In this document: positions 16,073 through 19,675 of the stretch, piece after piece
Numbering within the stretch: the stretch's first letter is position 1
Layout of the letters: each line of letters starts with the position of its first letter
Source: Methylovirgula sp.
Lineage (GTDB): Bacteria; Pseudomonadota; Alphaproteobacteria; Rhizobiales; Beijerinckiaceae
Direction: 5' to 3'
DNA length: 19,675 nucleotides
Assembly (NCBI GenBank): GCA_025356505.1
Contig: JANXSV010000321.1
Coordinates: 1 to 19,675, forward strand
Program-made: the position numbers and the translations under genes
Notes under the pieces: generated by a model
Told to the model about the DNA's origin: nothing
Databases searched by the model: none
The model's input: the letters and a program-made list of their open reading frames with translations, nothing else

Positions 16073-16677
16073 TTCATCAAATATCCCAAATCCCGAAGGG
16101 CGGCCAACAATGGCCAAAGCGGCAATCCCTGCACAGTCGTGTGATCGCCTGAAACGTCTTCCAGAATGTGAGGACCAAGGGCTTCCAGCTGGTACCCGCC
16201 GACAGTGCTGAATATAGCGTCGCCCATGGCATCAAGATAGGTTTCGATCATGACGTCGGACAAGTGCCGCACGGTGATCGTAGCGCTATCGTGAAAGCAG
16301 GCGAGCGTTTGACCATTTCTCACCAGCGCCACGGCAGATATCAACTTGTGCGATTTAGCCGAAAGCTGACGTAGTTGATGTTCCGCCTCAGCGCGCGATT
16401 TTGGTTTGTGCATGAAACCATGCTCGAATATCAAGGTTTGGTCGGCCCCCAGTGTCAGGTGATCTGGCCACTCGGGCGATACGCTAACGGCTTTGGCACA
16501 GGCTAGAGTCACTGCAAGGTCTTCAGGTTCCAATGCGACAATCGCGCGCTCATCGATGTGGGCGGCAGCGACCAAAATCGGCAGATCTAGGTTGAGCAGC
16601 AATCTGGCGCGAATTGGACTGGCTGAGGCGAGCACCAGCGGGTGTGGACCAAGCCAGAAAGGTTTTGGACGTGTCAT
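16069..16677 (-). CDS. maf: Maf-family nucleotide pyrophosphatase
   Basis: A 202-residue house-cleaning pyrophosphatase of the Maf/HAM1 fold, which hydrolyses modified or non-canonical nucleoside triphosphates. Visible motifs are [12 protein letters not shown] (16-27), HIDE (40-43), LGADQTLI (76-83) and GGYQLEALG in the C-terminal half. The usual SPRR is SPIR here, and GADQ replaces GADT. The latter resembles the YceF-like branch, whose E. coli member prefers 7-methyl-GTP, so substrate choice may differ from classical Maf. The ATG at 16677 overlaps the ppsR stop (ATGA), and aroE overlaps its own stop. Confidence 0.9.
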
Positions 16678-17507
16678 CCTTGCGCGATGAATTTCATGCG
16701 GTGATCTTTGTAAAGATCGACAATCGCCGCGGCAGTCTCCTCGATGGAGCGGCGCGTCACATCGATGGTGGGCCATCCACGCGCGTTGAAAAGACGCCGC
16801 GAGTTGGCGAGTTCTTCTGTGACGGACGTGCGGTCAACGTACGGGCTCTCATTGTCCGCATTTAAGGCCAGCAGACGGTTTTGACGGATTTGAATAATGC
16901 GCTCTGGAGAGGCAAACAATCCAACGATCAAGGGCTTTGTTAGCTTTGAGAGGTTTGCCGGCGGGTCGACACCCGGAACTAAAGGCACATTTGCCGTTTT
17001 GATACCGCGATTGGCCAGATAAATGCTCGTTGGCGTTTTTGAAGTGCGGCTGACGCCCAGCAGGATGACATCAGCCGCCTCCAGATTTTCAGGGGCCTGG
17101 CCATCATCCTGTGCCATCGTGAAATTCAGCGCATCGATGCGCCTGAAATAATCAGCGTTGAGGGTGTGCTGGGCACCCGGGCGCTGAGTGGACGCTGTAC
17201 CAAGATAGGATTGAAATAGCCCGAGGATGGGGGTCAGAACCGATAATGCGGGCGACCCCGCGGCCTCACAGGCTTGGTCGAGCCGCGTGCTTAAATCGTG
17301 GTCAACCAAAGTGAACAGCACGATGCCGGGCGAGGCTTCAATTTCCGCGATAACCTTATTGAGCTGGGCCAGATTTCGCACAAAGGGATAAACGTGCTCA
17401 ATCGAGGTCACACCTTGGTATTGCGCCGCCGCCGCTCTGGCAGCCGCGATCAGGGTCTCGCCGGTCGCGTCAGAAACGAGATGCAGATGAAAGTAGTTTC
17501 TTCCCAA
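16674..17507 (-). CDS. ppsR: Pyruvate dikinase / PEP synthase regulatory protein (DUF299)
   Basis: A bifunctional regulator of 277 residues, acting as ADP-dependent kinase and Pi-dependent phosphorylase on pyruvate phosphate dikinase or PEP synthase. The signature N-terminus [13 protein letters not shown] (7-19) and the P-loop [11 protein letters not shown] (151-161) are clear. RQNRLLALN and the [11 protein letters not shown] stretch also match the family. The start is TTG at 17507, with AAGAGGT about seven bases upstream on the minus strand (17515-17521). A perfect DnaA box begins at the edge of that ribosome site. It is the first gene leftward from the proposed origin and leads the maf-aroE-coaE-dnaQ set. 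Which dikinase it controls is not shown here. Confidence 0.93.
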
Positions 17508-17519
17508 TGCTTTGACCTC

Positions 17520-17528
17520 TTATCCACA
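17520..17528 (+). promoter_or_regulatory. DnaA box, perfect consensus
   Basis: TTATCCACA is identical to the strong E. coli R-type box. It overlaps by two bases the ppsR ribosome-binding site (minus strand, 17515-17521), so DnaA bound here could affect ppsR expression as well as initiation. Confidence 0.75.
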
Positions 17529-17581
17529 GGGCATCTGATGCTAGCGTTCATAAGCCAGAAAAACTGAGATCAGCGCGGCAA

Positions 17582-17590
17582 TTTTCCACT
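17582..17590 (+). promoter_or_regulatory. Weak DnaA box
   Basis: TTTTCCACT departs from TTWTNCACA only at the last base. It is a candidate low-affinity site. Confidence 0.4.
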
Positions 17591-17728
17591 GCAGTGTTAG
17601 AATTTTACAGATTTTGTTCAAGAGCAAATATTGTCGGGATTATTCGGTAGAGATTCTTGTAATCCGAATTTGAGTCAGTTCTTAACAATTTTTCTGCCAG
17701 AGATGTGAGGGCTGACTTTCTGAAATGG

Positions 17729-17743
17729 TTAATAAAACATTAA
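17729..17743. promoter_or_regulatory. CtrA-binding site
   Basis: An exact TTAA-N7-TTAA match (TTAATAAAACATTAA). In Caulobacter, phosphorylated CtrA bound at such sites in the origin blocks initiation. Here it ends one base before a DnaA box and lies about 150 bases upstream of hemE. Confidence 0.7.
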
Positions 17744-17744
17744 G

Positions 17745-17753
17745 TTTTCCACA
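17745..17753 (+). promoter_or_regulatory. DnaA box beside the CtrA site
   Basis: TTTTCCACA fits TTWTNCACA exactly. Only one base separates it from the CtrA site, so the two proteins would probably compete. Confidence 0.65.
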
Positions 17754-17806
17754 AAGGCCGCGTTTATATTAACGATTCGTCTGGCTCTGTGGCGTTGTGT
17801 ATCAAT

Positions 17807-17815
17807 TGTGGAGAA
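17807..17815 (-). promoter_or_regulatory. Weak DnaA box, reverse strand
   Basis: TGTGGAGAA on the plus strand reads TTCTCCACA on the minus strand, one mismatch from the consensus. Confidence 0.4.
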
Positions 17816-17840
17816 ATCAAATTGTCGCTAAAGAGCGGTC

Positions 17841-17880
17841 TAGAAGATTAAGAAGAAGATTCAAGATTCTATTATTTTAT
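17841..17880. other. AT-rich tract, candidate duplex-unwinding element
   Basis: Only 8 of these 40 bases are G or C. AGATT occurs three times (17845, 17857, 17864). GATTCTATTATTTT (17865-17878) resembles the E. coli 13-mer GATCTNTTNTTTT with one inserted T. The tract lies 16 bases before the hemE start. Confidence 0.5.
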
Positions 17881-17896
17881 CAAGGCTGGATATCAC

Positions 17897-18922
17897 TTGA
17901 CTGAGAAGTTGTTTTTGAAAGCCTGTAATGGAGAGGTCTTGGCGACACCGCCACTCTGGTTGATGCGTCAAGCAGGAAGGTACTTGCCGGAATATCGCGA
18001 GATCAGGTCAACGGCCAAAGGCTTTCTCGATTTCTGCTACTCGCCCAAGCTTGCGACTGAAGTGACACTGCAGCCGATACGGCGTTTTGGCTTCGATGCT
18101 GCCATTTTGTTTTCGGACATTTTGGTTGTTCCAGATGCTCTTGGTCAGAACGTGAGCTTTATCGAAGGCGAAGGACCAAAACTTGAACCTATCAGCTCTG
18201 AGGCGGAGCTTAACAAGCTGGAGGATCAAATTGATCTTAATAAGCTTGCCCCCGTTTTTGAAACCATCGATCGCGTCAAGTCGCAGCTCCCTAAAACCAC
18301 CGCTTTAATAGGTTTTTGTGGCGCGCCATGGACAGTGGCCTCCTATATGATTGCTGGTCATGGTACGGCTGACCAAGCCCCCGCCCGGCTTTTTGCTTAC
18401 AGATTCCCGCACGTCTTTCAACGTCTGATCGACAAGCTGGTCGTGGCCTCGCTGCTTTATCTCAACGCGCAGATCGAGGCGGGAGTTGAAGCGGTTCAAA
18501 TATTTGACTCATGGGCGGGCGTATTGCCCCGGGAAGAGTTTTTGCGATGGTGCTATGAGCCGGTTTGCAAGATGGTGGCCGCCCTGAAGCAGGCGCATCC
18601 GCATATCAAAGTCATTGCCTTTCCACGGCAGGCGACCAGCCATCTCAGCATGATGGCGCAAACCTGCGGCGCGGATGTGCTGGGCTTGGATACATCTGTC
18701 GACGTGGTCTGGGCGGCGCAAAATGTCCAGAACCATATTACTGTGCAAGGTAACTTGGATCCGCTGGTTTTGCTGGCGGGCGGCGACCGCCTGAAAAGCC
18801 AAGTTATGAGTATCAAAACGGCGCTGCAGGCTCGGCCATATATTTTTAATTTGGGTCATGGAATTTTGCCGCAGACCCCGGTTGCTCACGTCGAGCAACT
18901 TGTGAAACTGGTACGAAGTTAG
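17897..18922 (+). CDS. hemE: Uroporphyrinogen decarboxylase
   Basis: It removes four carboxyl groups from uroporphyrinogen III to give coproporphyrinogen III in haem synthesis. The protein is 341 residues. The signature PPLWLMRQAGRYLPEYR (18-34) holds the substrate-binding arginines. GFCGAPWTVASYMI, the IFDSWAG segment, VQGNLDP and the C-terminal GHGILPQTPVAHV follow the family. The start is TTG at 17897, with GGA six bases upstream; no ATG gives a complete N-terminus. It is the first gene to the right of the proposed origin, and its promoter must lie inside the origin, as in Caulobacter. hemJ follows after ten bases. Confidence 0.96.
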   Translation: MTEKLFLKACNGEVLATPPLWLMRQAGRYLPEYREIRSTAKGFLDFCYSPKLATEVTLQPIRRFGFDAAILFSDILVVPDALGQNVSFIEGEGPKLEPISSEAELNKLEDQIDLNKLAPVFETIDRVKSQLPKTTALIGFCGAPWTVASYMIAGHGTADQAPARLFAYRFPHVFQRLIDKLVVASLLYLNAQIEAGVEAVQIFDSWAGVLPREEFLRWCYEPVCKMVAALKQAHPHIKVIAFPRQATSHLSMMAQTCGADVLGLDTSVDVVWAAQNVQNHITVQGNLDPLVLLAGGDRLKSQVMSIKTALQARPYIFNLGHGILPQTPVAHVEQLVKLVRS

Positions 18923-18932
18923 GACAAGCAAA

Positions 18933-19355
18933 ATGTATGAATGGATCAAAGCACTGCATATTTTAGCCGTGATCGCATGGATGGCTGGAATGCTCTATCT
19001 GCCTCGGCTTTTTATCTATCATGTCGCCGCTGAGAAGGGCTCGGTGCAATCCGAAACCTTTAAAGTTATGGAACGGCGCTTGCTCAAGGCGATCATCAAT
19101 CCGGCTATGGCAGTGACTTGGATTGCCGGGCTGTACCTTGCTTATGCATCGCATGCCTTCGCAGCCCATTGGATGAGCGCGAAATTTCTCTTGGTTCTAT
19201 TGATGTCAGGCGTTCACGGTTTTCTGGCTGCAAGCACCCGCAAATTTGCCAATGACCAAAACACCCGCAGTGCAAACTTTTTTCGGGTCGTCAATGAGGT
19301 TCCCACGGTTCTGCTGATACTGATCGTCATCCTGGTTGTGGTAAAGCCGTTCTAA
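18933..19355 (+). CDS. hemJ: Protoporphyrinogen IX oxidase HemJ
   Basis: An inner-membrane protein of 140 residues in the HemJ (former UPF0093) family, which oxidises protoporphyrinogen IX to protoporphyrin IX late in haem synthesis. About four membrane helices are visible, at roughly 5-25, 55-73, 82-101 and 122-138. Conserved features are H9 in KALHILAVIAWMAGMLYLPR, the MERRLLKAIINPAM block (46-59) and K84 in the third helix. The Shine-Dalgarno AGGA overlaps the hemE stop. The pairing with hemE supports the role, and the next gene starts directly after its stop. Confidence 0.94.
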   Translation: MYEWIKALHILAVIAWMAGMLYLPRLFIYHVAAEKGSVQSETFKVMERRLLKAIINPAMAVTWIAGLYLAYASHAFAAHWMSAKFLLVLLMSGVHGFLAASTRKFANDQNTRSANFFRVVNEVPTVLLILIVILVVVKPF

Positions 19356-19675
19356 ATGACGCGCCGACTTATTTCGACAGGGTCACCGTTTGAGCTTAAG
19401 GGCGGCTATTCCCGCGCGGTTGTTCAAGAGCCATGGGTTTTTGTCTCGGGCACGACCGGATATGACTATACGAAAATGGTTTTGCCTGAAGGTGTAACCG
19501 CTCAGACACATCAGTGTTTCAACACAATCTCCGCAGTATTGAACCAGTGCGGCTCGTCTTTGCGAGATGTGGTGCGGGTGAATTATGTGGTGTCGAGCCG
19601 CGACTATGTTGAAGAGGTTCTTCAAATAGCGGGTCAGTATTTTGCAGAGATCCGGCCCGCGGCTATGATTATCGT
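19356..19675 (+). CDS. RidA/YjgF-family protein, 3' end cut off
   Basis: An open frame beginning ATG directly after the hemJ TAA (no gap) and running 106 codons to the window edge without a stop. The RidA fold is clear: YSRAVVQEPWVFVSGTTG, then TAQTHQCFNTISAVLNQCGSSL, DVVRVNYVVSSRDYVEEV and EIRPAAMII. Classical RidA proteins deaminate reactive enamines using an arginine in a P-A-R motif; here the aligned residue is alanine (R-P-A-A), so ordinary RidA deaminase activity is doubtful. Translation is probably coupled to hemJ. The missing end is probably about 20 residues. Confidence 0.85.
   Translation, partial: MTRRLISTGSPFELKGGYSRAVVQEPWVFVSGTTGYDYTKMVLPEGVTAQTHQCFNTISAVLNQCGSSLRDVVRVNYVVSSRDYVEEVLQIAGQYFAEIRPAAMII

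Follow-up and report, generated by a model that had tools for sequence, protein, structure and literature searches.

A putative chromosomal replication origin of the Caulobacter type between ppsR and hemE in a draft genome of a Hyphomicrobiales bacterium

The DNA described here, which will be referred to as the window, is a stretch of 19,675 nucleotides that makes up an entire contig (C380) of a draft genome of 2.57 Mb (453 contigs, 97.2% complete). Near its right-hand end, an intergenic gap of 389 bp with a GC content of 0.39 separates two divergent genes, ppsR on the minus strand and hemE on the plus strand. As an earlier note on this DNA had claimed, both genes point away from the gap, ppsR leftward and hemE rightward. 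The identification of ppsR is based upon PF03618 and PRK05339 (339 bits, cut-off 225). For the HemE protein of the window, the nearest records (up to 67%, where records very near its own genome may be left out) are from Hyphomicrobiales and Beijerinckiaceae. Among the called genes of the window this is the sole gap above 300 bp, the runner-up being 204 bp long, and the five 389-bp segments listed as lowest in GC all start at 17501–17581, that is, in the gap region. The region 1284–1778, which was also considered as a large gap, was rejected because it holds a DUF1330 gene (1488–1775); this gene forms a tandem pair with a second DUF1330 gene (1779–2093), flanked by pyrF and dapB. A scan of the window against Rfam gave no matches. 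The features of the region are as follows, with the strand indicated where one applies:

16674..17507, minus strand: ppsR, kinase/pyrophosphorylase regulator of PEP synthase/PPDK (COG1806/DUF299), left boundary
17508..17896: putative chromosomal origin (Cori-type), AT-rich, recognized by its motifs, position and relatives
17520..17528, plus strand: DnaA box TTATCCACA, perfect, ppsR-proximal
17652..17656: GANTC (GATTC), candidate CcrM site
17672..17676: GANTC (GAGTC), candidate CcrM site
17729..17743: CtrA box TTAATAAAACATTAA (TTAA-N7-TTAA), half-sites invariant with four relatives
17745..17753, plus strand: DnaA box TTTTCCACA, 1 bp from the CtrA box
17774..17778: GANTC (GATTC), candidate CcrM site
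17807..17815, minus strand: DnaA box TTCTCCACA, about 90 bp from hemE
17837..17876: candidate unwinding tract, AT peak 20–60 bp before hemE, common to relatives
17858..17869: two GANTC sites (17858–17862 and 17865–17869) in the AT-rich hemE-proximal tract
17897..18922, plus strand: hemE, uroporphyrinogen decarboxylase (TIGR01464, 407 bits, cut-off 303), right boundary
19096..19675, plus strand: window end overlapping the start of contig C225 (95% identity, 580 bp)

The three DnaA boxes in the gap are the only matches to the pattern TTNTCCACA in the window. The number expected per dinucleotide shuffle of the gap is 0.013, and none of 5000 shuffles reached three. The whole draft contains 57 such matches, and the three in the gap, which span 296 bp, form its densest cluster, as is expected for a Cori-type origin; this comparison counts exact TTNTCCACA sites and not weaker boxes. 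No other two matches in the draft are less than 800 bp apart, the closest other pair (C82:3747 and 4558) being separated by 811 bp. Taken one at a time, the remaining motifs are less telling. A TTAA-N7-TTAA site was present in 107 of the 5000 shuffles and is thus weak evidence alone; in the entire draft this pattern occurs at 35 sites and a control pattern at 50, and the looser pattern TTWW-N7-TTWW showed no enrichment in the gap (1 observed, 0.64 expected, with 2198 of 5000 shuffles reaching 1). Five GANTC sites are present where 2.0 are expected, a number reached by 204 of 5000 shuffles. Two patterns for the IHF consensus gave no match in the gap, which may contain a degenerate site. The concentration of DnaA boxes, a CtrA box, GANTC sites and an AT-rich tract in the sole gap above 300 bp, as described in the earlier note, is confirmed by these counts (three, one and five sites, at a GC of 0.39). 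The DnaA-box cluster is strong evidence by itself, and the CtrA box and the GANTC sites become so only together with the relatives. In the draft's lists of both motifs, the sole other close CtrA/DnaA pairing that we saw is at C341:2914–3190, where two CtrA boxes lie 31 bp apart and a DnaA box follows after about 220 bp.

A comparison using the gap itself as a DNA query against 199 genomes of the family, 185 of which gave some match at E values up to 10, was dropped. Its best matches were mostly in the start of ppsR and not in the gap, and hence the gaps were compared by means of their flanking genes. The ppsR gene was found in 328 of 397 genomes of the order. The best 30 ppsR loci, one of which is the window's own and 29 of which are from relatives, all had a divergent hemE, with a gap of 372–619 bp. 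A larger set of 140 loci was made up of the best ppsR loci, named loci fetched by means of HemE and further loci from the family, some genomes being included twice; of these, 113 contained a divergent ppsR/hemE gap. The gene pair was not shown in the other 27, where 4 had ppsR alone and 23 had hemE alone, several of them being cut off by the end of a contig. Many of these 27 loci are from Methylocystis, Methylosinus or Roseiarcus, and no ppsR was observed in the roughly 3 kb of flank fetched around hemE in L085, L086, L094, L096, L106, L107, L110, L113, L114, L120, and L140, which are from these genera and their kin. The ppsR-less loci point to a rearranged origin neighbourhood in this group. 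After removal of 11 gaps (the window's second copy and near-duplicates), 102 non-redundant gaps including that of the window remained.

In these 102 gaps the motifs are far more frequent than expected. An exact TTNTCCACA site is found in 45 of them, where shuffles predict 1.8, and in only 10 of 929 flanking windows; the other 57 gaps lack the exact pattern. The corresponding numbers for TTAA-N7-TTAA are 60 gaps, 1.0 expected and 5 of 929 flanking windows. GANTC is present in all 102 gaps, with 467 sites versus 228 by shuffles, and at least one site occurs in 596 of the 929 flanking windows. When no motif was supplied, the top enriched 8-mers over the same gaps consisted mostly of DnaA-box cores (TGTGGA) and CtrA half-sites (GTTAAC). 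The sites also have preferred positions: 38 of 70 CtrA boxes are located 150–200 bp before hemE, and reverse TCCACA cores peak at 100–150 and 350–400 bp before this gene. In the window, occupied bins contain the CtrA box (168 bp before hemE) and both forward DnaA boxes (at 152 and 377 bp), and the reverse DnaA box, some 90 bp before hemE, is slightly outside the main cluster at 100–150 bp. A TCCACA core is found between 18 bp before and 60 bp past the hemE-side end of 37 of the 70 CtrA boxes, and none of the CtrA–TCCACA spacings listed, which cover 40 bp before this end and 80 bp past it, was on the ppsR side. Both CtrA half-sites and the TCCACA core are invariant in an alignment with four near relatives. 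The composite in which the CtrA and DnaA boxes are separated by one base is present in 4 of 102 gaps, namely those of the window and of L072, L073, and L074, and this exact geometry is confined to near relatives.

A perfect CtrA box is present in 28 of the 39 gaps in the set from the window's own family. The idea that it is limited to this family, which came from its occurrence in 1 of 11 gaps from other families (10 of them from one genus, g27), was rejected upon examination of 40 further loci at the listed places of ppsR. Thirty-seven of these 40 loci, from 19 other families, contained a divergent ppsR/hemE gap (351–602 bp) and were scored, whereas three could not be scored. TTAA-N7-TTAA was found in 19 of the 37 gaps and TTNTCCACA in 18, leaving 19 without the exact pattern, and 11 of the 19 other families had at least one perfect CtrA box. 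Families in which none was seen include f24 (0 of 3; L249, L260, and L272), f28 (0 of 2; L239 and L256), and f50 (0 of 2; L233 and L271). The perfect CtrA box at the ppsR/hemE gap is thus widespread but patchy in the order, and it is not family-specific.

The partition genes provide a further marker, as parAB is a good anchor for the origin (PMC8116508). Contig C225 and the window overlap end to end, the initial 580 bases of the former being 95% identical to the final 580 of the latter. This suggests a strain mixture in the assembly, and C380 and C225 are most likely neighbouring contigs that were broken by strain variation, as judged by this overlap and not by a joined sequence. C225 carries, in this order, a RidA-type gene, rho, mnmE, mnmG, rsmG, a gene for a ParA-type ATPase and parB, and it contains two parS-like sites (C225:646 and 5495), each with a single mismatch. 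By way of the overlap, their distances from the gap come to 1.8 and 6.7 kb on the hemE side. The parAB/parS locus, a companion of Cori-type origins, appears to lie close by, as judged through the overlap with C225. In Caulobacter the arrangement is similar, with hemE and CC0001 divergent, GANTC sites within Cori and parAB located beyond hemE, and in Sinorhizobium meliloti experiments reportedly place the chromosomal origin beside hemE as well. A perfect parS was found in 16 of the 21 genomes searched and was absent in five, including the draft itself. In all 16 it was on the hemE side of the gap, and in 14 of them the nearest one was 3.7–7.5 kb from ppsR, the distances in the other two being 29 kb (G142) and 90 kb (G117).

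Based upon its location, its boundary genes, the DnaA boxes, the conservation in relatives and the adjacent parAB/parS cluster, we consider it highly probable that this gap is the oriC of this Hyphomicrobiales bacterium and that, as in Caulobacter, it is of the hemE/COG1806 type. The placement of the origin between ppsR and hemE proposed in the earlier note is thus supported, and the context it cited, that of the Caulobacter and Rickettsia origins, has the same boundary genes hemE and COG1806 (PMC1914354). According to that source, Cori lies between these two genes, and the features listed for such origins, which include an IHF site (usual, with single elements sometimes missing) and a shift in GC skew, need not all be present; CtrA boxes number five in Caulobacter, with a variable number elsewhere and zero in some members (PMC1914354). 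The Cori of Caulobacter crescentus, between hemE and CC0001, is 404 bp long compared with 389 bp here, and as in the present gap its AT content is above that of its own genome and it contains DnaA boxes and TTAA-N7-TTAA (PMC1914354; PMC8959179). In contrast to it, the gap described here has one perfect CtrA box and not five and has no match to the IHF consensus, and no ctrA was found in the draft. The hemE/COG1806 origins predicted for Rickettsia have the same boundary genes and are of similar length (383–396 bp; PMC1914354), but those gaps are about 82% AT versus 61% here. For Hyphomonas, the origin was mapped by marker frequency to hemE after GC skew, dnaA and DnaA sites had been unclear; in Hyphomonas neptunium coverage peaks beside hemE, and parAB, with two parS sites upstream of it, is at a distance of about 7 kb (PMC6650430), so that a position mapped there corresponds to one that is inferred here. 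Within the same order, the chromosomal origin of Sinorhizobium meliloti is reported to have neither CtrA motifs nor CtrA binding (PMC4433202), whereas a perfect CtrA box is present in our gap.

The AT content of the 102 gaps reaches 0.61–0.66 at 20–60 bp before hemE and is 0.39–0.56 in the other 20-bp bins. An AT-rich tract of the AGATTCTA type about 50 bp before hemE is common to these gaps, with the exact word in 13 of 102. In the window, the candidate tract at 17837–17876 may be either an unwinding element or the promoter/leader of hemE. As an alternative, the gap could serve only as a bidirectional promoter of ppsR and hemE that is regulated by CtrA and DnaA, which double as transcription factors, with replication starting elsewhere. 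Two divergent genes do need promoters in the gap, and the AT peak before hemE is a possible place for one of them. However, three clustered DnaA boxes occur nowhere else in the draft, and parAB/parS is adjacent, as judged from the contig overlap in this draft and from its position in the relatives, so that we regard a promoter role alone as very unlikely. Further, in Caulobacter the transcription of hemE and the function of the origin share one region (PMC8959179), and the two readings are not exclusive.

A main origin next to dnaA, or a pair of origins (at dnaA and at hemE), would have a parallel in Ochrobactrum anthropi, for chromosome 1 of which two origins have been predicted (PMC4403523). 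In the draft, dnaA is on another contig than the gap (C87, 17.5 kb), and no TTNTCCACA and no TTAA-N7-TTAA were found on that contig, where weaker boxes may be present; a cluster of exact DnaA boxes is thus not seen beside dnaA. In addition, parB and parS are on C225, whose start overlaps the window end, and we give this alternative only a slight chance. The case that the earlier note had named as contrary to its claim, an origin next to dnaA or to a parAB locus far from the gap, was likewise not encountered as far as can be seen, with C87 devoid of these motifs and parAB/parS apparently adjacent by overlap. For Methylocystis sp. SC2, a related methylotroph, there is no clear inversion of GC skew, and the predicted oriC, 1063 bp long compared with 389 bp here, is not near the dnaA genes (PMC3794950).

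The GC skew in the window does not switch at the gap (+0.046 to the left, +0.063 to the right), and in two nearly closed relatives, G378 and G117, the skew was weak and its use for placing the origin was rejected as too weak. We also scored the strand polarity of the KOPS-like motif GGGNAGGG, of which the window and C225 contain too few sites for use. In G378 (40 stretches), 92 sites are concordant and 24 discordant about the gap, a result equalled by none of 5000 random strand flips. The best switch in this genome is at 520–570 kb (520–560 kb before six stretches were added) and the gap is at 476 kb, so that the fit is 45–95 kb off, on the ppsR side. For G117 the fit gave 1.28–1.30 Mb with the terminus free or 1.46–1.68 Mb with equal arms, the gap being at 1.15 Mb and parS at 1.24 Mb. 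This fit is at least 130 kb from the gap and beyond parS, and the net score at the gap is 26 (38 with the terminus free) versus best scores of 54 and 62. At best, polarity in G378 and G117 places the origin in the same part of the chromosome and not in the gap itself. A 16S gene was found in 8 of 25 genomes, and it points away from the gap in all seven with ppsR on the same contig, five of these being from one genus. A search for dif with an E. coli-like core as query and up to three mismatches gave a match in 1 of 29 genomes and was uninformative. An origin near the gap and not in it, for example in the mnmG–rsmG–parAB segment a few kb away, would suit the displaced polarity fits (beyond parS in G117, on the ppsR side in G378), but with neither TTNTCCACA nor TTAA-N7-TTAA in the 10.5 kb of the parB contig C225, and with the sites concentrated in the gap relative to the flanks over 102 gaps, it is exceedingly improbable.

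An origin of the Cori type at this locus is expected and ordinary; what goes beyond the routine is the missing ctrA, which is the most unusual point, and the patchy spread of the CtrA box. A ctrA gene was not found in the 97%-complete draft in a search at E values up to 1e-40, which a short fragment would escape, the best match (177 bits) being a paralogue. In contrast, all 21 other searched genomes of at least 90% completeness gave a match of 419–430 bits (cut-off 350), and the other three genomes without a match are 57–76% complete. Seven OmpR-type DNA-binding domains were detected in the draft (E values up to 0.001); none of the five of these proteins scanned against NCBIfam matched at the CtrA cut-off, and the other two were covered by the ctrA profile search only. 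The likeliest explanation for the missing gene is an assembly gap. It is rather unlikely, in our view, that this lineage has kept the CtrA-type switch at its origin, where the box is common to its nearest relatives, and has lost ctrA, with another OmpR-type regulator or none using the box; if true, we would be seeing an origin whose master regulator has already disappeared. A CcrM-like methylase is encoded in the draft (602 bits with 347 of 350 positions aligned, against a cut-off of 830 for the Caulobacter-named model, which is not reached), and it likely reads the GANTC sites of the gap.

If the gap is the origin, initiation may be envisaged as follows. DnaA-ATP would bind the boxes at 17520, 17745, and 17807 and then oligomerise, and the oligomer would open an AT-rich tract, most likely that at 17837–17876 beside hemE. 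The helicase would then be loaded and two forks would leave, one in the direction of ppsR and the other in that of hemE. A CtrA-type regulator bound at 17729–17743 would occlude or crowd the DnaA box, from which it is separated by one base, and thereby block initiation; at Cori, CtrA excludes DnaA (PMC8959179). The GANTC sites could report replication through CcrM methylation, and the nearby parS sites would subsequently be pulled apart by ParAB.

From a single contig and its relatives, the present analysis predicts with good support the origin of a draft Hyphomicrobiales genome, and it yields a footprint of conservation over 102 gaps. Given the patchy distribution of the CtrA boxes, the gain and loss of CtrA control over initiation can be compared across sister families.
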